Shown here: piece after piece, positions 20,010 through 32,167 of the stretch
Numbering within the stretch: the first letter of the stretch is position 1
Layout: the number at the start of each line of letters is the position of its first letter
From: Anaerolineales bacterium
GTDB lineage: Bacteria; Chloroflexota; Anaerolineae; Anaerolineales; UBA6663
NCBI GenBank assembly: GCA_020845955.1
Contig: JADLEU010000175.1
Coordinates: forward strand, 1-42,483
Length of the DNA: 42,483 nt
Reading direction: 5' to 3'
Notes under the pieces: model-generated
Seen by the model: only the letters and a program-made list of their open reading frames with translations
Told to the model about the DNA's origin: nothing
Databases searched by the model: none
Position numbers and translations under genes: made by a program

Positions 20010-20053
20010 CCCACGCATAATCCGTGCTGCCGCGCCCAGCCGCCGACCTACTC

Positions 20054-20812
20054 ATGCTCCGCGCCCTGTTCGAGCGTTTCGGTTACTTGCCCCTCACGTT
20101 GGGCCTGACGACCGCGGTTGTGCTGGTTTCCATTAGCGTCACCCTAGTCGTCACCAGCCTGCTGGGCGAGGCGCCCGGTCCCACCGGGCTGGCCATCGCC
20201 GTCATCGTGCCGGCGCTGATTACGCCGGTCTTCACCGTGCTCGTCCTGCGGCTGCTTTCACAGCTCTGGCAGGCCGAGGCCAGCCTTAAGATCCTGGCCG
20301 TCACCGACGAGCTGACCCAGGCCAACAACCGCCGCCGCTTCCTCGAGCTGGCGGCGCACGAGCTGGAGCGCGCCGAGCGATACCAGACCGTCTTTTCCAT
20401 CAGCCTATTCGACCTGGATAACTTCAAGGCCATCAACGACACCTACGGCCACCGCGCTGGCGACGACGTTCTGCGCCAGGTAGGCGCCGTCAGCCGTGTC
20501 GCGCTGCGCGCCGGCGACACCTTCGCCCGCTACGGCGGCGAGGAATTTGGCGTGCTGCTCGAAGCCGCCGACGCCGAGGCCGCGCGCTGCGTGATCGAAC
20601 GGCTGCGCGCGCGCCTGGCCGAAACAGTCGTGCTCTCCGGCGGCCGCGCCATCCGCTGTACCGTCAGCGTGGGCCTGGTCACCTGCGACCTGCGCCTCGG
20701 CGCGGCCCCCCTACCCGGTGGACCGCCTACGCTCGACCAACTCCTCGAGCGCGCCGACGCCGCGCTGTATTCCGCCAAGGCCGCGGGCGGCAACGCTGTC
20801 GTGGCGGCGTGA
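20054..20812 (+). CDS. Membrane-bound GGDEF diguanylate cyclase
   Basis: A 252-residue protein predicted to make cyclic di-GMP from two GTP. Two membrane helices (about residues 11-36 and 43-66) are joined by a short loop, so there is almost no external sensor domain. The GGDEF domain begins LAVTDELTQANNRRRFLELA; the metal-binding DLDNFKAINDTYGH segment and the active-site GGEEF (161-165) are intact. An RxxD inhibitory site, RAGD at 152-155, lies exactly five residues before GGEEF, so product inhibition is expected. The start is uncertain: ATG 20054 is chosen because the helix follows directly, while GTG 20024 would add 10 residues and sits closer to the TATAAT. No EAL or HD-GYP partner is in the window. 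Confidence 0.92.
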   Translation: MLRALFERFGYLPLTLGLTTAVVLVSISVTLVVTSLLGEAPGPTGLAIAVIVPALITPVFTVLVLRLLSQLWQAEASLKILAVTDELTQANNRRRFLELAAHELERAERYQTVFSISLFDLDNFKAINDTYGHRAGDDVLRQVGAVSRVALRAGDTFARYGGEEFGVLLEAADAEAARCVIERLRARLAETVVLSGGRAIRCTVSVGLVTCDLRLGAAPLPGGPPTLDQLLERADAALYSAKAAGGNAVVAA

Positions 20813-20915: not shown

Positions 20916-21698
20916 CTAGCGGATGGCCATGCGCAGCCGCCGCGCCAGGATCACTACCACAATCAGGCCCAACCCGGCCAGCACCAGGCCCGGCACGCCG
21001 GCCTCGTCGGCGAAGCCGGTGTCGGGCAGTGCCGTGGCCGTGCGGGTGGCGGTAGGCGCCGGCACCAGCGTGCCGGGCGTGCCCGTGGTCGTGATCTGCA
21101 CCAGTTGCGTCGGCCCAGGGCTGGGCGTGCGGCTGGGCAAGCGCGTGGGCGTGCCGCCGGCCACGCCCCCAGTTGGACTGGGACCAGGCGTGGCCGTATC
21201 GTCGTCGCCACCGCCCGCGCCGGGCGTGCCGGTGGCCGCCGCGGCGGTTTCGGCTGCCGCCGTGGCGCTAGCCGCCTGTTCGGCGCTCAGCGTCTCGGTG
21301 GGGAGCGGCGTATCGGTAGGCACGGGCGTGCGCGTTGAGGTCGGCGCCACCACCGGCGTGTTGCTCGGCAGGGAGGTAGGCGTGTCGGGCAGGGCCAGCC
21401 GCGTGGCCGTGGCCGACCGGGCGGTCGCCGTCGCCTGCCCCTCTACAAAGCCGCGCGTCATCTCGGCCGCGACCTGTGTGTTCTGGGCGACGATCTGGGT
21501 GTTCTGGGCGTTTACGGCAGCCGCCTGGGTGCGCTGCGCGCTCGCCCGCAGTGGTCCAATAAACACCGCGTAGATACCCAGGCACAGCAGACCGATAATG
21601 AAGATGCTGCCGAGCAACGCCGCCAAAATAATGAATGCGCGGTTTGAAGCCTCTTCCGGCGGCGGTCCCGCGGCCTCGATCGGTTCTTCCTCTGCCAT
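20916..21698 (-). CDS. Thr/Pro-rich membrane protein with LPDTG-like C-terminal anchor
   Basis: A 260-residue protein. The acidic N-terminus (MAEEEPIEAA) is followed by a membrane helix (about residues 22-46), a Gln/Ala-rich stretch with repeated QNTQ-type units (about 56-80), a long Thr/Pro/Ser-rich linker, and a C-terminus of ALPDTGFADEAG, a hydrophobic helix and RRLRMAIR. That tail has the layout of a sortase sorting signal (LPxTG, helix, basic end), but the N-terminal helix is not a cleavable signal with an external start. The protein may therefore be held at both ends. No sortase gene is in the window. The ATG at 21698 follows GGAGGAG. It is the last gene of the minus-strand cluster; a 132-base gap separates it from the KOW-protein gene, so it could also be transcribed alone. 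Confidence 0.8.
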   Translation of the reverse strand: MAEEEPIEAAGPPPEEASNRAFIILAALLGSIFIIGLLCLGIYAVFIGPLRASAQRTQAAAVNAQNTQIVAQNTQVAAEMTRGFVEGQATATARSATATRLALPDTPTSLPSNTPVVAPTSTRTPVPTDTPLPTETLSAEQAASATAAAETAAAATGTPGAGGGDDDTATPGPSPTGGVAGGTPTRLPSRTPSPGPTQLVQITTTGTPGTLVPAPTATRTATALPDTGFADEAGVPGLVLAGLGLIVVVILARRLRMAIR

Positions 21699-21830
21699 AG
21701 ACTCTCCTCCTTATCGGCGCCGGCCGGCCGCGCCGACCACTCTGCCGCGCCTGTCTCACGCCTCCGGGGTTAGGCCCCACGGCCGGGCCTCCCGGCCTCA
21801 GATTGTGCAGCCCCCAGCTTCCGTCTGTTC

Positions 21831-22907
21831 CTACTCCAGTATCTCCAGGTTCGCCAGCGGCACGTCCACCACGCCGGCCGCGCCGTCCAGCGCCACCTGC
21901 GCCGCCCGCAGGCGCAGCCCACTGGCCACCAGCACCGGGCGCTCGCTCAGCGTGCGCACCGTGCCCACCCGGCCGGTCTGGGGCCCGCGCAGCACACGCA
22001 CCCGCCGGCTTTCGGCCAGCGCCTGCCCTTCCATCGGCGGCAGCGGCGCGGTACCCGGGCTGGGCAGCGGGATCAGTAGCTCGGGCTGCCGGCCGGCAAA
22101 CCGATCGGGCGCCACGGCATTCAGCCAGGCCTCGCGGCCAGCATTACTGGTCAACAGGTTCCAGGCCGGGGTCGAGAACCCCCGCGCGCCAAACCCCTCC
22201 ACGACCAACACCGGCAGGTCAAGCGCCCGCGCCGCCGGCAGCAGCGCCGGGCCCAGCCCGCCCACCACCAACCCGCGCACGCGCACCTCCCCCAGCCGCC
22301 GCAGCGCCGCCGCGTCGGCCAACGTGCCCGCTGCCAACAGCGCGCCGCGCCATTCCATTTCCACCTTGTCCGCGGTCAGCGGCGCGGCCGGGTCAGCGCT
22401 CGTCAGCCGCAGCGGCGCAGAGTCTTCGCGCCCATTGCCCCACACCCCTTCCAGCAGTGCGCCTGTGGTTTCAATGACCACGCCCCGCGACTGCAAGACC
22501 GTGACCACCTGGCCGGGGATACCGGCCCGCAGCTCAAACGGCCGCGAAATAGCCGCTACCAGAGCCTTGCCGCCCGCGGCCACCACCAGCCGGCCGTCGG
22601 CGGGCGAGCGCGCCGCGCGCCGGCCCAGCCCCAAAGCCGTCTTGCGCACCGCGATCGGTTCGCCGGCCTTCACCGGGTCTCCGTCCTGCTTCACCAGGGC
22701 GCTGTCGGCCTTCTCGTCGGGCACGCCCAGCTTGCGGGCCACGTCTACCAGATAGTGGCGGTCGGCCAGGAACGTCTGCGCCACCACGTCAGCGGCTTCC
22801 ACGCGCTGGCGCGGCTGCACGATTACCTCGCCCGCCAGGGGCAGCATGCGCTCGCGCCGCAGCGTGGCCAGCAGAGTCACATGCGCGGTCGGAGCTAAAT
22901 AGGGCAT
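21831..22907 (-). CDS. Conserved protein with KOW-like motif, partner of the GlmL-like gene
   Basis: A 358-residue protein without membrane helices. The first 120 residues have Gly/Val-rich, barrel-sandwich-like repeats (LPLAGEVIVQPRQRVEAADV, then DGDPVKAGEPIA and ADGRLVVAAGGK), reminiscent of lipoyl/RnfC-type hybrid motifs. The middle is an alpha/beta region with LVVGGLGPALLPAARALDLPVLVVEG. Near the end RVRVLRGPQTGRVGTV is a KOW-like motif, as in ribosome- or RNA-polymerase-binding proteins. Its ATG lies one base after the stop of the GlmL-like gene (TAG-C-ATG), so the two are translationally coupled and probably act together. I cannot assign a function. The domain readings are motif-level only. 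Confidence 0.8.
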   Translation of the reverse strand: MPYLAPTAHVTLLATLRRERMLPLAGEVIVQPRQRVEAADVVAQTFLADRHYLVDVARKLGVPDEKADSALVKQDGDPVKAGEPIAVRKTALGLGRRAARSPADGRLVVAAGGKALVAAISRPFELRAGIPGQVVTVLQSRGVVIETTGALLEGVWGNGREDSAPLRLTSADPAAPLTADKVEMEWRGALLAAGTLADAAALRRLGEVRVRGLVVGGLGPALLPAARALDLPVLVVEGFGARGFSTPAWNLLTSNAGREAWLNAVAPDRFAGRQPELLIPLPSPGTAPLPPMEGQALAESRRVRVLRGPQTGRVGTVRTLSERPVLVASGLRLRAAQVALDGAAGVVDVPLANLEILE

Positions 22908-22908
22908 G

Positions 22909-24663
22909 CTAGGCGCCGTTCAACTGATCGATCCACAGCTGCACCAGCGCCTGGCGCTGCTCGGGCGCGCGCGGGAACACGATCGGCCGGCCGCGCGCGT
23001 CCACGATCACCCCCAACCCCGCGCCCAGCACACGCAGGCTGTGTCCGCGCCCCAGCCCCGCGCCCGCGCTAAAACCGGCCCGCGGGCGAATAGTGAGCTT
23101 GGCCGTGCGCCCGCGCGCCAGCGGCAGCACCTCCAGCGCGCCGTACGGCACGTCCACTTCGCGCGTCGCGCCGTCCTCTTCCACCAGCTTGATGTGGGCG
23201 GCCGTCTCGCCTGGGCGGCCACGGCCCACCAACGACACGGCCGTGCCTAAATCCAGCATCGCCTGCGAGTCGTGCACCTGCGCCGCCGCCAGCGGGTTGA
23301 CATAGGCCAGCGCGCCCAGCGCGGGCGCCAGGTGATAGGGATCCGCCCACAACCGCGTCACGCCCGCCGGCTGCAGCGCGTCCAGCAGCACCAGCGCGGC
23401 CAGCCCCGGCCGTGGGGCGCGGCCCAGAGCGGCGCCGCCGCCAACGATCAGGCTGAACCAGGGCAACAGCTCGGGACGCGGGCCGGGCGTACGCTCGGGC
23501 CAATCGGGCCGGGCCTTGCGCATCGCCACGCGAATCACGTGGCGCGCCAGCGCCAGCTCCCGCCACAGGTCGTTGGCGTCGACCGGCACGGTCGCCGGGT
23601 GAACACTCTTGTTAAGCGCGAAGGCGCGCACTGCCTCGTCGTCGAGGGCATATGGCAGCCAGCGCGTGATCTGGTCAATGTGGCTTTCGGCCAGGGCGTT
23701 GGCCGCGCCCGCACCCACCCCCAGCCCGGGGCGCACACTCAGGTGCAGCTCGCCGTTCCAGGCCGCAGCCACGCTGGTGTTGGCTGAGCCCACGTTCACG
23801 CTCAGCACGCCGCGCGGCCAGGCCTGCAGCTTGCTGAGGAAACGCACGTAATAGCCCTCGGCCTGCGCCGTGGGCACGATCCGTCCGCCGGCGGCCTGGG
23901 CCAGGTCGCGGAAACCGCCGATCTGCTCCAGGCGTAGCGCCTCATACAACTGGCCCAGCTCGGCGCGCGCTGGGCCGAGCTGCTCGTAGCCCAGCGCCGG
24001 CAGAACGTTGGCCGCGGTGCGCACCAACGCCACGCGCCCCAGCATCTCGCTCATCCGCGCCTGCAGATCGGCGTTGCCGGCAAACAGCGCCTTGGCTTTC
24101 GAGCCAGGCGGCAGCAGATGGCAGGCCAGGCTGATCGTCTCGACCAGTTTCAGCAGGGCTTCGCTCGCCCCACCGTCGGTGCCCCCGGCGATCACCAACA
24201 GCTCGGGCTTGGCCGCGATCACCGCATCGATCTGCTGGTCCTGCCCGCGCGTATCGCCCAGGCTGAACTGGTCCACGAGCTGCACGTAGCTGCCGCCGAC
24301 GATGCGCCGCGCGCTCTCCAACGACACGTCAGGCAGCAGGCCCACCAGCAGCCCGCGCACTGCCGGTCCCGCGCTGGAGGTGGCCACGACGACGTCCAAC
24401 CCGCGCCCGTCAGCGCCGGCCGGCATCATCAGACGCGCCTCGTCATTGATGACCTCGCGGCCGGTCACCGCTTCCAGCTCGGCCAGCGCGTGGCGCAGCC
24501 CTTCCGATGCGTCGTGATACGGCGCGGCGGCCGTCGTGGGCGCCTCGGCACAGCCTACCAGGCGGTAGGCGCTCTCCACCACGTCGAACAGCAGCGCCCG
24601 CGTAGTCGCGCTGCCGAAGTCAATGGCCAGGATAGTGTCGGTCGCGCCCGTGTCTATCGCCAT
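22909..24663 (-). CDS. GlmL/MutL-family ASKHA ATPase
   Basis: A 584-residue protein of the actin/Hsp70/sugar-kinase (ASKHA) fold. The phosphate-1 loop is LAIDFGSATTRALLFD (residues 12-27). Further family marks are DVVVATSSAGPAVRGLLVGL, LLVIAGGTDGGASEALLKLV, VNVGSANTSVAAAW and LIVGGGAALGRAP. This matches MutL/GlmL, the protein encoded beside the subunits of coenzyme-B12-dependent glutamate mutase and thought to help reactivate it. No mutase subunit or B12-binding DxHxxG motif is seen in this window; instead the gene sits among membrane and zinc-ribbon genes, so a different client is likely. The ATG at 24663 is one base past the stop region of the upstream gene (24667), and the downstream KOW protein is coupled. 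Confidence 0.85.
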   Translation of the reverse strand: MAIDTGATDTILAIDFGSATTRALLFDVVESAYRLVGCAEAPTTAAAPYHDASEGLRHALAELEAVTGREVINDEARLMMPAGADGRGLDVVVATSSAGPAVRGLLVGLLPDVSLESARRIVGGSYVQLVDQFSLGDTRGQDQQIDAVIAAKPELLVIAGGTDGGASEALLKLVETISLACHLLPPGSKAKALFAGNADLQARMSEMLGRVALVRTAANVLPALGYEQLGPARAELGQLYEALRLEQIGGFRDLAQAAGGRIVPTAQAEGYYVRFLSKLQAWPRGVLSVNVGSANTSVAAAWNGELHLSVRPGLGVGAGAANALAESHIDQITRWLPYALDDEAVRAFALNKSVHPATVPVDANDLWRELALARHVIRVAMRKARPDWPERTPGPRPELLPWFSLIVGGGAALGRAPRPGLAALVLLDALQPAGVTRLWADPYHLAPALGALAYVNPLAAAQVHDSQAMLDLGTAVSLVGRGRPGETAAHIKLVEEDGATREVDVPYGALEVLPLARGRTAKLTIRPRAGFSAGAGLGRGHSLRVLGAGLGVIVDARGRPIVFPRAPEQRQALVQLWIDQLNGA

Positions 24664-24666
24664 AGC

Positions 24667-25350
24667 TCACAATTGAAAGATGACCAGGATCGCGCTCAGG
24701 CGCTCGGCGAACACCGCCACGCTGGCCGCCAGCGCCCCGGCATACATCACGCCAAAGGTCACCGCAATGAAGATCTGGCCCACCGCCGCCACCGGCCGCG
24801 CCAGCGGCGCACGCTGCACCGGGCTGCCCAAGGGTCCGGCTCGCCCGCCATACCAGAAGAAGCCCAGCGTGGCCAGCGTGCCGACGATCATGAACAGCCC
24901 CTCGACCACCAGCTCCACAAACTGGCCGGGCTGGTCAAAGGGCAGCAGCGAGACCCAGGCGGCCGCGGTCTGGGGCAGCAGCGTGCCGGTAATGGCTCCG
25001 CCCACGGACGCGGCTGCACCCACCCCCAGCATGGCGGCGACAACCAGCGTGCCCAGCCGGGCGTCGACGTGCAGCGTCTTGAGCAGCAGCAGCACGCCGC
25101 CGATCAGGCCCGCCAGGCTCACGAGGGCCGTGACCGCCAGGGTCACCAAGTCGCCGCCGTTGCCCAGGGTCACCAGCCGGCGCAAGTGGGGCAAGATCAC
25201 GGTGTGCCAGGCCAGCACCACGGCGTAGCCCGCCGCTAGCCCAACGAACAGGTGCGCTGCCGCCCGGTACAGCGGGTTATCAGCCACCAGGTAAGTCAGC
25301 AGGGCCAAGGTCAAGACCAGCGCGGCCATCGCGGACGCGAACTCAAACAT
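24667..25350 (-). CDS. Six-helix membrane protein of the GlmL-associated operon
   Basis: A 227-residue integral membrane protein with about six helices (roughly 5-22, 28-50, 66-90, 98-122, 145-165 and 187-211). Polar marks within the membrane region include ADNPLYRAAAHLFVGLAAGY, a His-Thr-x-Ile-Leu-Pro-His segment (about 49-55) and FDQPGQFVELVVEG. I do not recognise a named family. The ATG at 25350 is 2 bases past the stop of the 1092-aa gene, and the next gene follows within 4 bases, so it is certainly co-transcribed. It probably works in the same membrane assembly as the adjacent zinc-ribbon protein. Confidence 0.82.
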   Translation of the reverse strand: MFEFASAMAALVLTLALLTYLVADNPLYRAAAHLFVGLAAGYAVVLAWHTVILPHLRRLVTLGNGGDLVTLAVTALVSLAGLIGGVLLLLKTLHVDARLGTLVVAAMLGVGAAASVGGAITGTLLPQTAAAWVSLLPFDQPGQFVELVVEGLFMIVGTLATLGFFWYGGRAGPLGSPVQRAPLARPVAAVGQIFIAVTFGVMYAGALAASVAVFAERLSAILVIFQL

Positions 25351-25352
25351 GG

Positions 25353-28300
25353 TCAGCGCTTTCGACGGCGTACGAGGCTCAGCAGCCCGTACACCAGGTT
25401 ACCGGCCGCGATGATCACGGCAGCCGCCAGCAGCCCCCCACCCAGGGCCGGCCAGCGCTCGGTGCCGGTGCCCGGCAGGCCGGCGTGCTGCTCATATTGA
25501 GTCGCGCCGGCCAAACCTGCCACCAGGCCATCGACCTGCGGGTTGTCGTCGCCCTGGGTGTAGGGCCGCAGCAGCGGCTCGGCGCCCATGCTGGCCACGA
25601 CCACCAGGTCTACCTTGGGCGCATAGCGCTGGGCCTGCTCGACCCAGGCGCGCGCTGCCTGCGGGGTGTCGGCTGCCACCACGATCAACCCAAAATCGGC
25701 CAGGGCGTTCACCCCTGCCAGAGCCGAAGTCTCCCATACGGCCTCGCCGCGCAGTGTGCCGGTGAAATCGCTCTGGAAGGCGCCGCGCGGCCCGCCCGCG
25801 AATTGCAGCAGCCCCACTGGGCCGCCGGGCAAGAAGCCAAGGTTCAAGTAGTGGGCGCCGTAGCTGTAGCGGAATCCGGTCTGTTCGCCCAGGCTGGTGG
25901 CCGTCGCCTCCAGCACTTGTTGGCTCACGGCTGCCCCGGCCGGCCGCGACGACACGGCCACGACCGGCAGCCCAAGCCCCAGCACCTGGCGCACGATGGC
26001 CTGGGCGCCGGGGTTCAACTCACCCTGTAACGCCGGCTCGTACTCAAAGGCCACCAGAACCGGCGCCGGCCGCGTGCCGGGCGCGCCCGACCGGGTCCCG
26101 GCGGCGGCCACGGCCTCGTAGGCCGCCTGGGCTTCGGCCGTCATGCCCAGCGGCAGGGGGAACAGCGCCGGCCAGTAGAACTGGGCTAGCCCAATGGCCG
26201 CCGCCAGCACGGCGAAGATAACCCAGCGCTCCACCAGCGCCCCCAGCCGAGACCGCCCGCGCCGATCCGAGCGCGGAGCGATCTCAGTTTGCAGCAGGTC
26301 CACTAGCAGCTTGGCGTGCGCGGACTGTGCATCGCTGACTTCCAGGCGGCGCACCGGCGCGGCCGCCGGGTGGGGCTGCGCCACGATTGGTTCGGCGCGC
26401 AAAACGCCGCGCATACCGGCCAGAACGCCCAGGGTCTCCTCGTAGGCCTCGGCCTCGGGCGCGGACGGCTGCGCCAGGTCCACCGGCCGCATCGCGGCCA
26501 GCCAGGCCGGCAGTTGCGCGGGCTCGGCGGCCGGCGGTTGGGCCGGCTCGGGCTCAACCGGCGTCTGGACCTCGGCCGCCTCAAAGCGGGCCGGCTGCGG
26601 CTCGCGCTCGGCGGGCGGGGAGGCGGCCTGGCCGCGCAGCGCGCGCAGCCATTCCGGCACCTCTTCGGTGCCGGCCTCTTCCTCTACCGGCATGCCGCGC
26701 AGCGCCTTCAGCCACTCGGGTAGCTCGGCGTCGGGCGTGGGCGCGATCTCGGGCTCAGGCTCGACCGGCGCTGCGGCGGCCGGGAGGGTGGGCGCGGCCG
26801 CCGTCGCGGCAGCCAGCTCGTCCATCCAAGCCGGGACCTCGACCGGCGCCGGCGTCTCGCCCAGGTCCGGCGGCTCGGCGGTTTCGGCTGCGGCTGCAAC
26901 GCCCGCGCCAACCAGCGGCCCGCTCCCGGGCGGCGAGGTCAGCACGGCCTGCGCGTCGGGCTCGGCTGGCGGGGCGGCCGAGAGTTGGCTGAGCCAGGCC
27001 AGGGTCTCTTCGTCTAGTTCGGGGAGGCCGGGGGGCGGCGTGGCCGCGGGAGGCTCGGGGCCTTCGGCGGCTGGCGCGCTGTGGGCGCCAGCCGCCAGCG
27101 TCGCCAGCCATTCGGGCATCTCGCCCGAGGTGTCGGTCGGCACGCCGGGCAGTTCGGCGGCTTCGGGCGCCTCGGGTCGCATGGCCTGCAGCCACTCGGG
27201 CAGGCTCTCCTCGGCAGCCGGGGCGATGGTTGGCTCAGGCGCCCGCGGGATTTCGGCGGGCGGCTCTCCGGGCCGGCCGGCCCCCTTGAGCCAGTCGGGC
27301 AACTCCTCGGGCTCGACGGTGACGATGGCCTCCTCGCCCGCTGCGCTCGCGCCGCCCGACAACACCGTCAGCCATTCGGGCACCTCGGCCTCTGCGCTGG
27401 CAGGCGCCGCGCCCTCCGGGCCGCTGGGCGTAGAGCCCAACCAATCGGTCATCTTCTTCCTGCCCGCCGGGCGCGCCTGGCCAGGTACGGTGGTCGGAGT
27501 TTCGACCGTCTTGGTGGGTGGCTCGGCCTCCGGCTTATCCGGCGGCGCCAGGATCTGGTTCAGCCAGTCGGGCGTGCCGGCGTCGCCCTGGATGGGCGAC
27601 GTGGGGTGAGGTGCCGGGGGCTGGGGGCTGGGCGGCTCCGGCGCCTGCGTGCCGGCCAGCTCGGCCGCGGCCGCCTGCTCCGCGGCCGTGGGCCGCATCC
27701 AGGGCGGCGGCACCGCCATCCGGCCCGCGGCTGCCGGCGGCTTTCCTTCTGCCGTGGGCGGCTGCTGGTCCGCGGCGCCCGAGGGCAGCGCCTTCAGCCA
27801 ATCGGGCACGTCGGACTCTTCCGCCGGCTGCGCCGGGGTGGGTGCGCCCTCGGCGGGCGCGAGCGGGGCCAAGTCCTGCAGCCAGGCGGGCACCTCGTTA
27901 GATGGCGGCTCCTGGCCCGCGGCCAGCCAATCGGTCATCTTGCGGCGGGGTCGGTCGGCCGCGAGCTCGCCGGCCGGCACCACGGTCGGCGCGGCCTCTT
28001 TCAGCCAGTCGGGCATCTCGTCGCTGGAGGCGGGCTCCGCAGCAGGAGGCTCCGGGACGGGCGGGGGAGTGAGTGTTTCCGGCGCCGCCGTGGGCCCGGT
28101 CACTGGGGCCAGGTCGCGCAGCCAATCGGGCAGATCATCGCCGGCCGGCTCCGCGGCCGGCGTTTCGGTCTGGCCAGTCCACATCCAATCCGGCTCGTCG
28201 GCCGGCCCGCTGTGCACCTCGCGCAGCCGGCTCATCCAATCGTCCGGCGTTTCGGGCTCGGTCGCCGGCGGCGCCTCGGGTAGCGGCGGGGGCTGCTCAG

Positions 28301-28631
28301 CCGGCTGCGCGCCGCGCATCAGGCGCTCGCGCAGGCTGCCGGAGGCCGGCTTGGCGAGGCTAGGAGCCGCGCCCGCCTCAGCGGGACCAGACGCCTTGAG
28401 CGGCGCGTGGCAGTTCCGGCAGGTCGTTTGGGTGGCAGGGTTGGGCTGGCCGCACACCGGGCAATTTACGCTCTGCGTCCCGGCCGCGATCAGCGTCTGG
28501 TCGGCGGGTACGCTCGCGGGCGCGGGGGCCTCCCCGACCGCCGGCAGCTTAAGCCGCGCCTCGCAATACTGGCAGACTTCCAGGAAGTCCGGGTTGGGCT
28601 TACCACACGCCTGGCAGCGAATGACAGCCAT
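25353..28631 (-). CDS. Large double zinc-ribbon protein with PxWL-repeat linker and C-terminal membrane domain
   Basis: A 1092-residue protein. Two zinc ribbons open it: C6-x2-C9, C20-x2-C23 and C57-x2-C60, C71-x2-C74. Residues from about 110 to 760 are Pro/Ala/Glu-rich, probably disordered, and carry about 18 copies of a short motif such as DLPDWLRDLAP, EMPDWLKEAAP, DVPDWLKALPS, ELPEWLKALRG and QLPAWLAAMRP. A membrane helix (VIFAVLAAAIGLAQFYW, about 795-815) leads to a roughly 230-residue domain (VLVAFEYEPALQGELNPGAQ and later LIVVAADTPQAARAWVEQAQ) and a final helix with a basic end RRRKR. The topology suggests cytoplasmic ribbons and motifs with an external domain. The repeated Trp-Leu motifs look like multivalent docking sites. 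The function is unknown. The ATG at 28631 starts directly at the ribbon. Confidence 0.85.
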   Translation of the reverse strand: MAVIRCQACGKPNPDFLEVCQYCEARLKLPAVGEAPAPASVPADQTLIAAGTQSVNCPVCGQPNPATQTTCRNCHAPLKASGPAEAGAAPSLAKPASGSLRERLMRGAQPAEQPPPLPEAPPATEPETPDDWMSRLREVHSGPADEPDWMWTGQTETPAAEPAGDDLPDWLRDLAPVTGPTAAPETLTPPPVPEPPAAEPASSDEMPDWLKEAAPTVVPAGELAADRPRRKMTDWLAAGQEPPSNEVPAWLQDLAPLAPAEGAPTPAQPAEESDVPDWLKALPSGAADQQPPTAEGKPPAAAGRMAVPPPWMRPTAAEQAAAAELAGTQAPEPPSPQPPAPHPTSPIQGDAGTPDWLNQILAPPDKPEAEPPTKTVETPTTVPGQARPAGRKKMTDWLGSTPSGPEGAAPASAEAEVPEWLTVLSGGASAAGEEAIVTVEPEELPDWLKGAGRPGEPPAEIPRAPEPTIAPAAEESLPEWLQAMRPEAPEAAELPGVPTDTSGEMPEWLATLAAGAHSAPAAEGPEPPAATPPPGLPELDEETLAWLSQLSAAPPAEPDAQAVLTSPPGSGPLVGAGVAAAAETAEPPDLGETPAPVEVPAWMDELAAATAAAPTLPAAAAPVEPEPEIAPTPDAELPEWLKALRGMPVEEEAGTEEVPEWLRALRGQAASPPAEREPQPARFEAAEVQTPVEPEPAQPPAAEPAQLPAWLAAMRPVDLAQPSAPEAEAYEETLGVLAGMRGVLRAEPIVAQPHPAAAPVRRLEVSDAQSAHAKLLVDLLQTEIAPRSDRRGRSRLGALVERWVIFAVLAAAIGLAQFYWPALFPLPLGMTAEAQAAYEAVAAAGTRSGAPGTRPAPVLVAFEYEPALQGELNPGAQAIVRQVLGLGLPVVAVSSRPAGAAVSQQVLEATATSLGEQTGFRYSYGAHYLNLGFLPGGPVGLLQFAGGPRGAFQSDFTGTLRGEAVWETSALAGVNALADFGLIVVAADTPQAARAWVEQAQRYAPKVDLVVVASMGAEPLLRPYTQGDDNPQVDGLVAGLAGATQYEQHAGLPGTGTERWPALGGGLLAAAVIIAAGNLVYGLLSLVRRRKR

Positions 28632-28649
28632 CTTTCAGTGACTCACGCC

Positions 28650-29318
28650 CTAGTCGCCGTAGGGACGGTCAAGACCCATAAGCAGGCGCAGGCCGGTGGC
28701 GATGGTGCCCAGCGCCACCCCCAGCAGCAGCCCGCGCGCCCCGGCCGTGGCGGGCAACAGCGTCGCCGTGCGCAGCAGGTCGCGTAGCGATACCGAGCCG
28801 GCTTGCGGCGCGGCCTCCAGGCCCGCCGGCCAGGGCGCCAGCGCCACCAGCGCCACCACCACCGTCAGTCCAAACACGGCCGTGGTCAGCGAGGGGCGCG
28901 TCCGCAACAGGCGATAAGCGGCGTAGACCAGGAAGAACGCCACCAGCCCGGCCAGCGCCGCGCCGCCCGTGCCGATCAGGTAGGTGAGCAGCCAGCTGTT
29001 GGCCGCGCTGCCCGCGCCGCTGCCCCACCCCAGCAGCGGTCCGACGAGGTTGACGACGATGACGGCCAGGAAGCCGATGTAGACAAAGACGCTGTACATC
29101 CAGCCTGGCGACTGGCTGAGGAATTTCTTGCCGTGCACCATGAGCAGGTTGAGGCCGCCGGCCAGCACGGCCCAGGCCGCGAGCAGGCTAACGGTGGACA
29201 CTGCCACCAGCCGCGCGTTTTGCAGCACCTCGAGATCAGAAAAGTAGCCGAACAGCGTGAGCAGGCCGGCTGCGATGGCGAACAGGGTGGCCAGCAAGTT
29301 GAAGAAGCGAAGTCGCAC
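28650..29318 (-). CDS. Six-helix membrane protein of the GlmL-associated operon
   Basis: A 222-residue integral membrane protein with about six helices (roughly 4-24, 37-60, 75-96, 108-132, 145-162 and 196-214). A basic patch, HGKKFLSQSPGW, lies between helices 2 and 3 and a polar loop GAGSAANSW before helix 4. I recognise no family. The start is GTG at 29318, preceded by AGGGG on the minus strand. The stop lies 18 bases before the next gene. The gene before it (the DUF6754-like gene) ends 26 bases upstream, so it belongs to the same transcript. Confidence 0.78.
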   Translation of the reverse strand: MRLRFFNLLATLFAIAAGLLTLFGYFSDLEVLQNARLVAVSTVSLLAAWAVLAGGLNLLMVHGKKFLSQSPGWMYSVFVYIGFLAVIVVNLVGPLLGWGSGAGSAANSWLLTYLIGTGGAALAGLVAFFLVYAAYRLLRTRPSLTTAVFGLTVVVALVALAPWPAGLEAAPQAGSVSLRDLLRTATLLPATAGARGLLLGVALGTIATGLRLLMGLDRPYGD

Positions 29319-29344
29319 GTGTTTCCCCTGACGTCCGGTGTTCG

Positions 29345-30097
29345 CTAGAAAAGTCCCAGGGTCTTGGCCGCGACACCCAGCAGAATCGCGACACCCACCG
29401 CCAGTCGCAGGATGTCTTGCGCCGTCAGGCTGGCCAGGTGCGCGGGCGCGCCGCCCACATACGCGCCGCCGGCAAACAAGTCTTCGCCGATCAGCGGGTG
29501 GTCGGCGGCGGCATACAGCACGGCCTGCGCTGTCAGGTTGTCGGTGCCGGCCAGGGTGGTCACGCCAGCGCGTTGGCCGGCCTCGGTCAGCAGCACCGCC
29601 TCTGTGCCAATTGAGCCCAGCAGCAGCGCCCCGGCCACCGCCTGGTCGCTCGGCAGCATTGTCTGCGCCGCGCCAAACGAAGCCGGTGTCAAGCCCACCG
29701 CCTGCGCCGACTCGGGGTCGTAGCGCGCCAGCGCGTTCTGGCGGGCATAAACACCGCGCAGCGTGTCCTGAGCCAGCAGCATGGCCGTGCCGTCGGCGGT
29801 AGTGACGATGGGCGGCCGGTCGCTCATGGCGGCCGCGGCCGCCACCTGGTCCAGCACGACCACCCCGGCCAGCATGGCGGCCGTGTCAGCCCCGCCGACC
29901 GTGCCAGTGCCCAGCGAAAAGTGCAAGCGCTGGCCGGCCTCAACCGCCGTGCCGACCGTGGCCGGCAGGCTCTGGTAGCCGTCGATGCGGCGCAACACGC
30001 GCCGCCGCGCGCCCTTGCGCTGGGCCAGCAGGGTGAGGCCGGCGATCAAGCCGGCAAAGGCCATCAGCGCCAGCAGGCCCACAAATTGACTGATCAT
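29345..30097 (-). CDS. DUF6754-like membrane protein
   Basis: A 250-residue protein with an N-terminal helix (about residues 3-24), a basic stretch KGARRRVLRR, a soluble domain of about 190 residues and a C-terminal helix (about 228-246). The soluble part contains LHFSLGTGTVGG, PPIVTTADGTAMLLAQDTLR and AGALLLGSIGTEAVLLTEAG. I associate this pattern with DUF6754, a family of unknown function found mainly in Chloroflexota; the name is from memory. The ATG at 30097 overlaps the stop of the upstream small gene (ATGA at 30097-30094), so translation is coupled. The fold, anchored at both ends with a central external or internal domain, parallels the C-terminal part of the 1092-aa protein. Confidence 0.75.
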   Translation of the reverse strand: MISQFVGLLALMAFAGLIAGLTLLAQRKGARRRVLRRIDGYQSLPATVGTAVEAGQRLHFSLGTGTVGGADTAAMLAGVVVLDQVAAAAAMSDRPPIVTTADGTAMLLAQDTLRGVYARQNALARYDPESAQAVGLTPASFGAAQTMLPSDQAVAGALLLGSIGTEAVLLTEAGQRAGVTTLAGTDNLTAQAVLYAAADHPLIGEDLFAGGAYVGGAPAHLASLTAQDILRLAVGVAILLGVAAKTLGLF

Positions 30098-30381
30098 GAC
30101 TTGTGCATTGGCCCCCGTTCGCCGTGCGCTGGATCGCGCCCGAGCTCGGCCGCTAACGCGCCTGCCGCCGCCGGGTCTTCCAGCAGCGCCGCCAGGTCGG
30201 TCACGCCCTCGCCTGTCCCCAGGACGCCCAACACTGGCGCCGCGAAGTATAACGCCTGCGCCCCGAAAAACGCCAGCGGCCCGCCGTCGGCCAGGAGCGC
30301 AGCCGCCACCCCGCCCAGGCCCCACCTGCGCAAGGCCCGGGCCGCGCGCTCAATCCGCCCGTCGCGCGTTACCTCCGACAT
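30094..30381 (-). CDS. Small protein, first gene of the GlmL-associated operon
   Basis: A 95-residue protein. A basic N-terminus (RDGRIERAARALRRWG) is followed by an Ala/Gly/Leu-rich stretch (about residues 21-50) that may be one or two short membrane helices, then an acidic segment GVTDLAALLEDPAAAGALAAEL. No family is recognised. The ATG at 30381 is preferred over longer frames because a minus-10 element (TATACT) ends 8 bases upstream, and because the extended sequence towards 30660 has no coding features. Its stop overlaps the start of the DUF6754-like gene by four bases. It would be the first translated product of the eight-gene cluster. Confidence 0.65.
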   Translation of the reverse strand: MSEVTRDGRIERAARALRRWGLGGVAAALLADGGPLAFFGAQALYFAAPVLGVLGTGEGVTDLAALLEDPAAAGALAAELGRDPAHGERGPMHKS

Positions 30382-30398
30382 TATGGGCGAGTATAGCA
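30382..30398 (-). promoter_or_regulatory. Predicted leaderless promoter of the minus-strand operon
   Basis: On the minus strand, TGC then TATACT (extended minus-10; hexamer at 30395-30390) ends 8 bases before the ATG at 30381. No ribosome-binding site lies in between, so the transcript probably starts at the start codon. The minus-35 hexamer is weak. Confidence 0.5.
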
Positions 30399-30811
30399 CA
30401 ATGGGACTCGCAAGCATAGCGATCCAACCGTACCTGTGGGTAGGGGTGCAAGACTGGTGCCAAGATATGGACGCCCACCAGCGCGGCGGGAGGTCTGAAT
30501 CCAACCAGCTTCCGACCCGTGCCCGGCTGATCTTGCTTGGCAGGAGCACCGGATGCGCCTTGACGGTGACGATCGGTGAAGGCCCATTGCCCGTCCGCCC
30601 GCCTGGCGCGCCACGGCGCCAGACGCATTCCCGGCGGAGGGGTCGGGGTGCATGTTGCAAACGCGATTAGCCGCCCGTACAAAAAGGCGCGTCCGCCGCG
30701 CCGCATCGCGCCACCAGGACCCGAAGATCGAACCCACCCAAGTCTGGCCAATATCTCCACTACCATGCGGGGGCGTGACGTTGCGCACGAACCGACATGA
30801 TTTTGGTTACG
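30399..30811. other. Divergent intergenic region with no recognisable gene
   Basis: About 410 bases between the minus-strand operon and the DUF418 gene. Short frames on both strands show no motif or ribosome-binding site. Nothing else is recognised. Confidence 0.45.
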
Positions 30812-30865: not shown

Positions 30866-32167
30866 ATGGCCGCTGCCACGCTTGCCTCCGATCGACCCGC
30901 CCTCGGCCCCACCCCGCGCGCCGAGCGCCTCGACGTCGTCGACAGCCTGCGCGGTTTCGCGCTCTTGGGGATCCTGCTGGTCAATATGGGCATCTTCAGC
31001 CAATCGGCCCAGCAACTGGTGCTGCCCCTGCCGCCCGGCACGCCCTGGTACGACGTCGCCGCGGCCTGGCTGGTGCGCTTCCTGGCCGAGAGCAAGTTCT
31101 ATTCGCTCTTCTCGTTCCTGTTCGGCCTGTGCCTCGTCCTGTTGATGGACCGCATTGAGGGCCGCGGCGGCCGCTTCGTGCCGCTCTACCTGCGCCGGCT
31201 GACGGCGTTGCTGGCCATCGGCCTGGTCCACGCGCTCCTCATCTGGAACGGCGACATCCTGGTGCTCTACGCCCTGCTGGGCGCCGTCCTGCTGCTCTTC
31301 CGCCGCGCTCGGCCGCGCACGCTCCTCATCTGGGCCGTGGCGCTGCTGCTGATCATGCCGCTCTTCAACACCGTCGTCGCCGGCCTCATCGCGCTGGGCC
31401 GCAGCCTGCCCCAGGGCGCCGCGCAGATCGACGCCGCCATGGCCGACGTGGTCGTCCGTTATCGCGCCGAGGCCCAACTGGCGCGCCAGATCTATGCCAA
31501 CGGCAGCTACGCCGAAATCACGGCCCAACGCGTGCGCGAATATCTCAGTTTCATGGCCATTGGCGACGCCATGATGATACCCAACGTGCTGGCTATGTTC
31601 CTCATCGGCGTCTACTTCGGCCGGCGCCGGCTGTTCCACGACGTGGCCGCCAACCGGCCCTTCTTCCAGCGGCTGCTGGCCTGGGGCCTGGGTCTGGGCC
31701 TGGTTGGCAATTTCGTCTATGCCAGCTTCAGCCTGTGGCTCTCGCGCGCCGAGATCTCCGGGCAACTGCTGCTGACGCAGCTTGGGCTGAGCCTGGGCGC
31801 GCCGGCGTTCTGCCTGGCCTACGCGTCGGCCCTCAGCCTGCTGGCCACGCGCCCCGGCTGGAGCGCGCGCCTGAAGGTCCTGGCGCCGGTCGGGCAGATA
31901 GCGCTCACCAATTACCTGCTGCAGTCGCTGATCTGCACCTTCATCTTCTACGGCTACGGCCTAGGCCTGTTTGGACTCATGGGCACGGCGCTGGGCGTAG
32001 TGCTGACCCTCAGCATCTACGGCCTGCAGATCCCATTCAGCCACTGGTGGCTGCGCCGCTTCCGCTTCGGCCCGGCCGAGTGGCTCTGGCGCTCGCTGAC
32101 CTACGGGCAGCCGCAGGCCATGCGTCGCCAGCCCGGGCAGCTTCAACCGCGTGGAGGCGCCACTTAG
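30866..32167 (+). CDS. DUF418 domain-containing membrane protein
   Basis: A 433-residue integral membrane protein with about nine or ten helices. The N-terminus RLDVVDSLRGFALLGILLVN is the family hallmark (an Asp-x-Leu-Arg-Gly-Phe motif shared with acyltransferase-like proteins). The loop YLRRLTALLAIGLVHALLIW and the C-terminal DUF418 region (GQIALTNYLLQSLICTFIFY, then PFSHWWLRRFRFGPAEWLWR) are all present. The biochemical function is not established. The ATG at 30866 follows AAGGGAG. The stop at 32165-32167 is only 4 bases before the first ATPase gene, so both are probably co-transcribed, which is an unusual partner for an A/V-ATPase. Confidence 0.9.
   Translation: MAAATLASDRPALGPTPRAERLDVVDSLRGFALLGILLVNMGIFSQSAQQLVLPLPPGTPWYDVAAAWLVRFLAESKFYSLFSFLFGLCLVLLMDRIEGRGGRFVPLYLRRLTALLAIGLVHALLIWNGDILVLYALLGAVLLLFRRARPRTLLIWAVALLLIMPLFNTVVAGLIALGRSLPQGAAQIDAAMADVVVRYRAEAQLARQIYANGSYAEITAQRVREYLSFMAIGDAMMIPNVLAMFLIGVYFGRRRLFHDVAANRPFFQRLLAWGLGLGLVGNFVYASFSLWLSRAEISGQLLLTQLGLSLGAPAFCLAYASALSLLATRPGWSARLKVLAPVGQIALTNYLLQSLICTFIFYGYGLGLFGLMGTALGVVLTLSIYGLQIPFSHWWLRRFRFGPAEWLWRSLTYGQPQAMRRQPGQLQPRGGAT

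Follow-up and report, generated by a model that had tools for sequence, protein, structure and literature searches.

What does a MutL-type protein do in a genome in which no glutamate mutase can be detected? The question is raised by an eight-gene operon on the minus strand (20916-30381) of contig JADLEU010000175.1, from the Anaerolineales bacterium assembly GCA_020845955.1; the whole stretch of 42,483 nucleotides was analyzed and is referred to as the window. An earlier note on this DNA had described eight close-packed genes built around a GlmL/MutL-like ATPase, and all eight open reading frames (ORFs) were found where it had placed them (Table 1). No description of the operon's function was found in the literature searched. 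Our finding is that the MutL-type protein belongs to a mutase-free branch of its family, and that it forms a widely inherited core with a protein carrying a KOW domain. We tentatively regard the operon as encoding a vertically inherited Chloroflexota complex, the physical assembly of which is presumed, and not an accessory of a B12-dependent mutase.

A MutL branch apart from glutamate mutase

The MutL-type protein resembles GlmL/MutL (PF13941, NF040745, TIGR01319) in an ASKHA domain that spans the whole Pfam MutL profile (201 bits, cut-off 27; profile positions 1-447 of 450), with recognizable phosphate-1, phosphate-2 and adenosine motifs, but it stays far below the cut-off of the GlmL equivalog NF040745 (88.3 vs 475 bits). 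PF13941 was searched in a sample of 201 Chloroflexota genomes, 20-kb loci around the matches were collected and profiles were iterated; the genome counts that follow refer to this sample. Glutamate mutase E (PF06368) has no match in the window's genome, so the absence of a mutase subunit reported in the earlier note extends to the entire assembly and glmE does not lie just outside the operon. The family exceeds its cut-off in just 4 of the 201 genomes. Mutase-type MutL proteins (530-567 bits) adjoin GlmE and a B12-binding gene in genomes G089 and G176 (G, L and f denote our genome, locus and family labels). Phylogeny had been proposed as a check, and maximum-likelihood analysis placed the mutase-linked proteins in a single group with 100/100 support, outside which all operon-type proteins fall, the window's included. 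G176 encodes one protein of each type. A link to glutamate mutase was rejected on these grounds, namely the lack of PF06368 in the genome and the position of the protein outside the mutase-linked clade.

The earlier note's statement that GlmL/MutL is known only as the companion of glutamate mutase may reflect the accepted view, yet among Chloroflexota genomes with the mutase-free branch far outnumber those with the mutase-linked one (83 vs 5). The counts exclude weak PF13941 matches in several families that turned out, where scanned, to be hydantoinase/oxoprolinase proteins. PF13941 also misses diverged MutL-type proteins in a set of lineages, which our own profile recovers. Our literature searches found no report joining Chloroflexota, MutL and glutamate mutase, and nothing useful on GlmL and its chaperone role. 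One further arrangement was seen in G184 (L047:4233-8027), where a 1264-amino-acid (aa) protein combines an N-terminal B12-binding-like domain with a C-terminal MutL domain.

Operon-type proteins also differ from GlmL in their sequence features. In an alignment of 133 operon-type and 6 mutase-type proteins, the tail following the Pfam domain has a median length of 120 aa in the former and 6-33 aa in mutase-linked GlmL. Within this C-terminal region lies a DxRGRP signature, absent from the mutase-type proteins, of which Asp555 and Arg557 are invariant in 133/133 operon-type proteins. The GGATTD stretch of the mutase-type proteins is not conserved in them. Both phosphate-loop aspartates are retained in 92/133; phosphate-2 position 290 is Asp in 105 and Asn in 14, the window protein keeping Asp15 and carrying Asn290, and the loops are degraded in members from four families (f5, f19, f32 and f52). 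Given the invariance of Asp555 and Arg557 and the variability of the phosphate loops, the C-terminal region, and not the catalytic site, is the most conserved property of the operon-type protein. For part of the family, hydrolysis of ATP is in doubt, and some members may bind nucleotide without hydrolyzing it or may not bind it at all. Because nucleotide-site aspartates are replaced in about one third of members, the window protein among them, the label 'ATPase' is unproven and, judged from these residues, scaffolding appears at least as likely.

A conserved operon with a smaller core

The gene order 95-aa protein, DUF6754 protein, 222-aa protein, adaptor, 227-aa protein, MutL-type protein, KOW protein and LPxTG protein is kept in several families. 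Scanning GTDB species genomes returned at least 570 relatives, and gene order, which the earlier note had wished to see compared among relatives, was collinear on one strand in 80/80 of the best 80 of them; nearly all of these 80 are labelled Chloroflexota and most are Anaerolineae. Where sequence was available for these 80 loci, the individual genes were found at high frequency (KOW 68/68, 227-aa 74/76, adaptor 64/66, LPxTG 63/64, 222-aa 57/59, DUF6754 55/57). Herpetosiphon aurantiacus (G110), a gliding filament with a chromosome of 6,346,587 bp (PMC3368417), has the full operon save for an adjacent KOW gene.

The core of the system is smaller than the operon. A KOW-protein profile matched 117 of the 201 genomes, and 114 remained after three weak matches were dropped. 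Among the 79 genomes having both, the MutL-type and KOW genes lie side by side on one strand in 60, on different contigs in 14 and far apart on one contig in five (families f21, f31, f57 and f60). The count of 60 is slightly favored by the curation of the MutL-type list, which was done by hand, with mutase-linked and hydantoinase-like matches removed and some weak matches kept partly for their adjacency to KOW. With our own profile, a diverged MutL-type gene was found directly upstream of the KOW gene in 11/11 examined genomes that lacked a curated PF13941 match. The membrane genes are often missing: a profile of the 227-aa protein had no match in 21 of 23 selected genomes. Since the MutL-type/KOW pair occurs without DUF6754 or polytopic genes in many Chloroflexota, the core does not include the membrane set. 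What is invariant is the MutL-type and KOW proteins, usually accompanied by an adaptor in which zinc ribbons, PxWL motifs or both are found; DUF6754 and the genes for the two polytopic proteins, the membrane set, join this core in some lineages only. The proposal that an ASKHA ATPase serves a membrane machine is thus borne out as a membrane link in some lineages, but not as to a membrane core nor, with both aspartates kept in only part of the family and Asn290 in the window protein, as to the ATPase.

Where the membrane module does occur, it is tied to the core. DUF6754 is present as a single copy in 44/201 genomes, of which 43 also have a MutL-type gene; the two are adjacent on one strand in all 35 genomes in which they share a contig. 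In the forty-fourth, G105, a partial MutL-type gene adjoins the KOW gene at a contig edge. Among sampled Chloroflexota, DUF6754 (PF20539) is therefore confined to genomes with the MutL-KOW core. About 24 loci have a counterpart of the 95-aa protein upstream of DUF6754, frequently with a 4-base overlap.

The KOW gene of Chloroflexia and related lineages has shifted to a place apart from the MutL-type gene (L173, L175, L178, L179, L180). Its scanned neighbors there are two-component proteins, including response regulators, and an L,D-transpeptidase gene, without MutL; genes that by size and number of transmembrane (TM) segments appear to encode F-type ATP synthase are also nearby. Plasmid-borne spread was considered and rejected, the DUF6754 and 227-aa proteins having no tblastn match in 72,556 plasmids. 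PADLOC returned 0 anti-phage defense matches for the 8 proteins.

In the window the operon is bounded on either side by plus-strand genes (GGDEF and DUF418). Genes 1 and 2 overlap briefly, and the gaps from gene 2 onward are 26, 18, 2, 3, 1 and 132 bases; overlaps of 1 or 4 bases are common at the corresponding junctions in relatives. The tight spacing and these overlaps suggest that the eight genes are co-transcribed with coupled translation. TM-like hydrophobic segments occur in 6/8 operon proteins, which upholds the membrane character of the partners and raises the count of five given previously by including the 1092-aa adaptor. A TATACT hexamer on the minus strand (30390-30395) ends 8 bases before the gene 1 ATG, where a leaderless transcript would have its -10 box, and it was not among the sites given by the consensus scan. 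A terminator-like site, a G+C-rich six-pair stem and then TTTTT, precedes the operon (30686-30702, minus strand).

Table 1. Positions in the window of the operon genes, their domains and motifs, and the flanking genes (aa, amino acids; TM, transmembrane segment)
Feature	Position	Strand	Evidence
95-aa protein, operon gene 1, one hydrophobic segment	30094..30381	-	ORF
DUF6754 protein, 251 aa: TM, soluble domain, TM	29345..30100	-	PF20539 112.8 bits
222-aa six-TM protein	28650..29318	-	relatives' loci
Adaptor, 1092 aa: zinc ribbons, PxWL repeats, then TM-domain-TM	25353..28631	-	
Double zinc ribbon, adaptor residues 6-74	28410..28616	-	DZR E 5e-6
PxWL repeat region, adaptor residues 147-711, 15 PxW[LM]	26499..28193	-	
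TM-Rossmann-like domain-TM of adaptor	25353..26285	-	model pLDDT 91.5
227-aa six- or seven-TM protein	24667..25350	-	relatives' loci
MutL-type ASKHA protein, 584 aa	22909..24663	-	PF13941 E 3e-59, tree
Phosphate-1 motif DFGSATTR, residues 15-22 of MutL-type protein	24598..24621	-	alignment
Phosphate-2 motif of MutL-type protein, Asn290 replacing usual Asp	23776..23796	-	alignment
C-terminal extension of MutL-type protein, ~120 aa beyond Pfam MutL end	22909..23268	-	
DxRGRP signature, residues 555-560 of MutL-type protein	22984..23001	-	alignment
KOW protein, 358 aa: barrel-sandwich-like N-terminus, swivelling beta/beta/alpha domain, KOW domain	21831..22907	-	model
Swivelling beta/beta/alpha domain, residues 150-281 of KOW protein	22065..22460	-	fold comparison
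KOW domain, residues 296-358 of KOW protein	21834..22022	-	fold comparison
LPDTG-tailed protein, 260 aa	20916..21698	-	
LPDTG motif, residues 224-228 of LPDTG-tailed protein	21015..21029	-	sequence
GGDEF gene, flanking	20024-20812	+	Pfam scan
DUF418 gene, flanking	30866-32167	+	Pfam scan

The KOW protein, the adaptor and the membrane partners

Profile searches of the operon proteins, as the earlier note had advised, gave clear matches to PF13941 and PF20539; the double zinc ribbon of the adaptor (27.0 vs 27.3 bits) and the KOW domain (16.6 vs 22.3 bits) came out under their curated cut-offs, and the latter was confirmed by fold. The structure model of the KOW protein (predicted local distance difference test score, pLDDT, 91.9) has a barrel-sandwich-like N-terminal part followed by two further domains. 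Its modelled KOW domain superposes on a KOW domain of Spt5 (4ytl; Z 8.8, root-mean-square deviation (rmsd) 0.8 A over 51 residues), and the top Foldseek match is T. maritima NusG. The protein thus shares the C-terminal SH3-like KOW fold with the modules of Spt5, NusG and uL24, but differs from them in its barrel-sandwich-like and swivelling domains, and no NGN domain or NusG family was detected in a Pfam scan with E up to 0.1. The modelled swivelling domain resembles 2hi6 (Z 11.9, rmsd 2.4 over 112 residues) and PTS (phosphotransferase system) enzyme I (2wqd; Z 11.8), and so shares its beta/beta/alpha fold (Z ~11-12) with the phosphohistidine-type domains of PTS enzyme I, rifampin phosphotransferase and the aconitase X small subunit. 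Unlike those domains it has no conserved His, none being invariant or near-invariant among 30 KOW-protein sequences, and the KOW protein is on this ground not a phosphocarrier of the PTS kind.

In the adaptor, the PxW[LM] motif was observed 15 times vs 0.39 expected (2000 shuffles, maximum 4). Among 10,217 ORFs of the fetched loci, two or more PxWL motifs were found only in the adaptor gene and in the MutL-type protein of two f31 genomes (L036 and L078; Herpetosiphon and kin), which has two of them. The count per adaptor ranges from 0 to 49 across relatives. Three architectures were seen. Adaptors of full operons have zinc ribbons, PxWL motifs and TM-domain-TM; those of f17 consist of TM-domain-TM alone; and a third kind has zinc ribbons, PxWL or both, with one TM at the C-terminus (f5, f28, f52) or no detected TM (f26, f42, f44). 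Adaptors with these motifs and a C-terminal TM thus exist in lineages without the membrane module, and the zinc ribbons are lost in several lineages in which the MutL-KOW pair persists. The folded domain between the two TM segments is predicted to be extracytoplasmic by charge distribution (positive-inside rule). Its model gives only generic Rossmann-like matches, the best being the MthK RCK domain (Z 9.8), and these are not interpretable as a function.

The DUF6754 protein matches PF20539 over its full length (cut-off 27), and its soluble domain is predicted to be cytosolic from an Arg-rich stretch after TM1. PDB sequence relatives were not found for the 222-aa and 227-aa proteins, and for the other membrane proteins only weak matches were obtained. 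Profile comparison did not support a common origin either of the DUF6754 soluble domain and the adaptor outer domain (probability 1%) or of the 222-aa and 227-aa proteins (2%). No mention of DUF6754 was found in the literature searched, and the C. aurantiacus proteome paper held nothing relevant.

The last gene of the operon, which was seen in 77 of the 80 best-matching loci, encodes a protein that runs from an N-terminal TM through a Ser/Thr/Pro-rich stalk to LPDTG, a second TM and an Arg-rich tail. LPDTG, hydrophobic segment and Arg-rich tail are those of a sortase substrate, and two sortases are encoded in the window's genome. The protein departs from such substrates in that its N-terminal TM follows an acidic stretch with no obvious cleavable signal, and in that the motif is lost in a few relatives (LPxTG present in 8/11 sequences).

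Envelope clues and competing explanations

Three observations point to the envelope, short of proof. In families f17, f29 and f39 (L184, L188, L192, near 6-11 kb of the loci) the MutL-KOW pair is inserted in a housekeeping cluster of the order glmS-acpS-carbohydrate kinase-alr-[MutL-KOW]-tsaE-tsaB-rimI-tsaD. SEDS cell-wall polymerases are encoded in all 114 KOW-protein genomes and the KOW protein in 0/23 SEDS-negative genomes (Fisher p ~6.5e-10, a value inflated by shared ancestry, the negatives clustering in related lineages). The third is the LPxTG protein together with the sortases, to which the adaptor can be added as a sixth membrane protein.

From these clues, together with the adjacency, phylogeny and motif conservation described above, we consider, with reserve, that the system may act as a scaffold that is tethered to the membrane, is perhaps controlled by nucleotide and serves envelope housekeeping. 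Its core would be a soluble pair, the MutL-type ASKHA protein with its private C-terminal domain and the three-domain KOW protein, which in most lineages examined a tethered adaptor would recruit to the cytoplasmic membrane. The probably disordered PxWL motifs could present many copies of one binding site on which the pair docks. The core would be coupled, in Anaerolineae, Chloroflexia and a small number of further families, to a membrane module made up of DUF6754 with its cytosolic domain, the two polytopic proteins and the adaptor's extracytoplasmic Rossmann-like domain; in Anaerolineae an LPxTG surface protein is added. Nucleotide bound by the MutL-type protein may set its conformation, which would allow its C-terminal domain to gather with the KOW protein on the PxWL tether or to leave it, and the assembled scaffold would then organize housekeeping at the membrane, for example cell-wall growth or the display of surface proteins. 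FtsA and PilM, membrane-recruited actin-fold scaffolds, offer an analogy only, in that here too an ASKHA protein is perhaps recruited to the membrane by short motifs. FtsA-family proteins differ in being encoded separately in nearly all these genomes, and the MutL-type protein has no Pfam FtsA match. A role as FtsA replacement is unsupported, FtsA-family matches being present in 199/201 genomes; they are few or weak in f44, f18 and f52, and none was found in G156 and G188.

Several observations weigh against such an envelope scaffold. The SEDS correlation is confounded by phylogeny: the SEDS-negative genomes belong mostly to lineages in which the module is missing in any case, and the module is also missing from many SEDS-positive genomes. 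The glmS-alr cluster includes tRNA-modification genes, and argS or ispD are neighbors elsewhere; with neighbors so mixed the envelope is not singled out, and translation genes are about as frequent among core neighbors as envelope genes. The adaptor of f26, f42 and f44 has no TM by the hydropathy test. Finally, the degraded nucleotide-site residues of several lineages fit scaffolding but weaken a switch.

Three membrane proteins are inherited together in tight linkage with the MutL-type gene, and the adaptor has a predicted extracytoplasmic domain anchored by TM. Both would also suit a transporter or secretion machine: its channel would consist of DUF6754 and the two polytopic proteins, ATP hydrolysis by the MutL-type protein would drive it, and the outer Rossmann-like domain would bind the substrate. 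We consider this unlikely: many genomes have the core pair but none of these membrane genes, ~30% of members, including the window protein, have replacements at nucleotide-site residues, and searches with the 222-aa protein, the 227-aa protein and the adaptor outer domain gave no sequence or fold match to known transporters.

The KOW fold raises a different prospect, that of a co-translational or RNA-associated device whose KOW domain and zinc ribbons bind ribosomes or RNA polymerase while their coupling to membrane insertion or to the synthesis of surface proteins falls to the MutL-type protein. Besides the close superposition on Spt5 and the NusG match, the translation genes that flank the core in several lineages (tsaE/tsaB/rimI/tsaD, argS) speak for it. 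It too is improbable, since Pfam detects no NGN domain and the MutL-KOW pair is kept where the zinc ribbons are gone; moreover, KOW folds can act as plain protein-binding modules.

An apparatus specific to motility or to the filaments of gliding Chloroflexota, suggested by the nearly full operon of the gliding H. aurantiacus, is very unlikely, because the core spans very many lineages, small-genome families included, and none of the scanned neighbors was recognized as a motility gene. Least probable is that the protein assists, as a distant chaperone or reactivase of the kind presumed for GlmL, a B12-dependent mutase whose genes lie elsewhere and unlinked: PF13941 homology and methylmalonyl-CoA-type mutase genes (PF01642), common across the phylum and present elsewhere in the window's genome, would allow it, but the protein's clade lies apart from the mutase-linked forms, G176 has both types, GGATTD is not conserved, and G072 (full operon, 99% complete), G010, G023, G033, G042 and G051 carry the module with neither a PF01642 match nor GlmE above cut-off.

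Returning to the envelope scaffold, its fullest form is a little more tentative still: a mutase-free MutL branch and a KOW/swivelling protein might act as a scaffold on multivalent PxWL tethers, with the DxRGRP domain rather than ATP hydrolysis as its business end and, in some lineages, with a DUF6754 membrane complex, which together would constitute a widespread but undescribed envelope system of Chloroflexota.

The core occurs in over half of the 201 sampled Chloroflexota genomes, among them that of a cultured filamentous model, and its parts have no assigned function. Annotation by family name could mislabel the MutL-type protein as a glutamate mutase accessory, and the MutL/GlmL family gains a mutase-free role to explain. 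The DxR motif, the PxWL repeats and DUF6754 provide concrete handles on the poorly known envelope biology of Chloroflexota.

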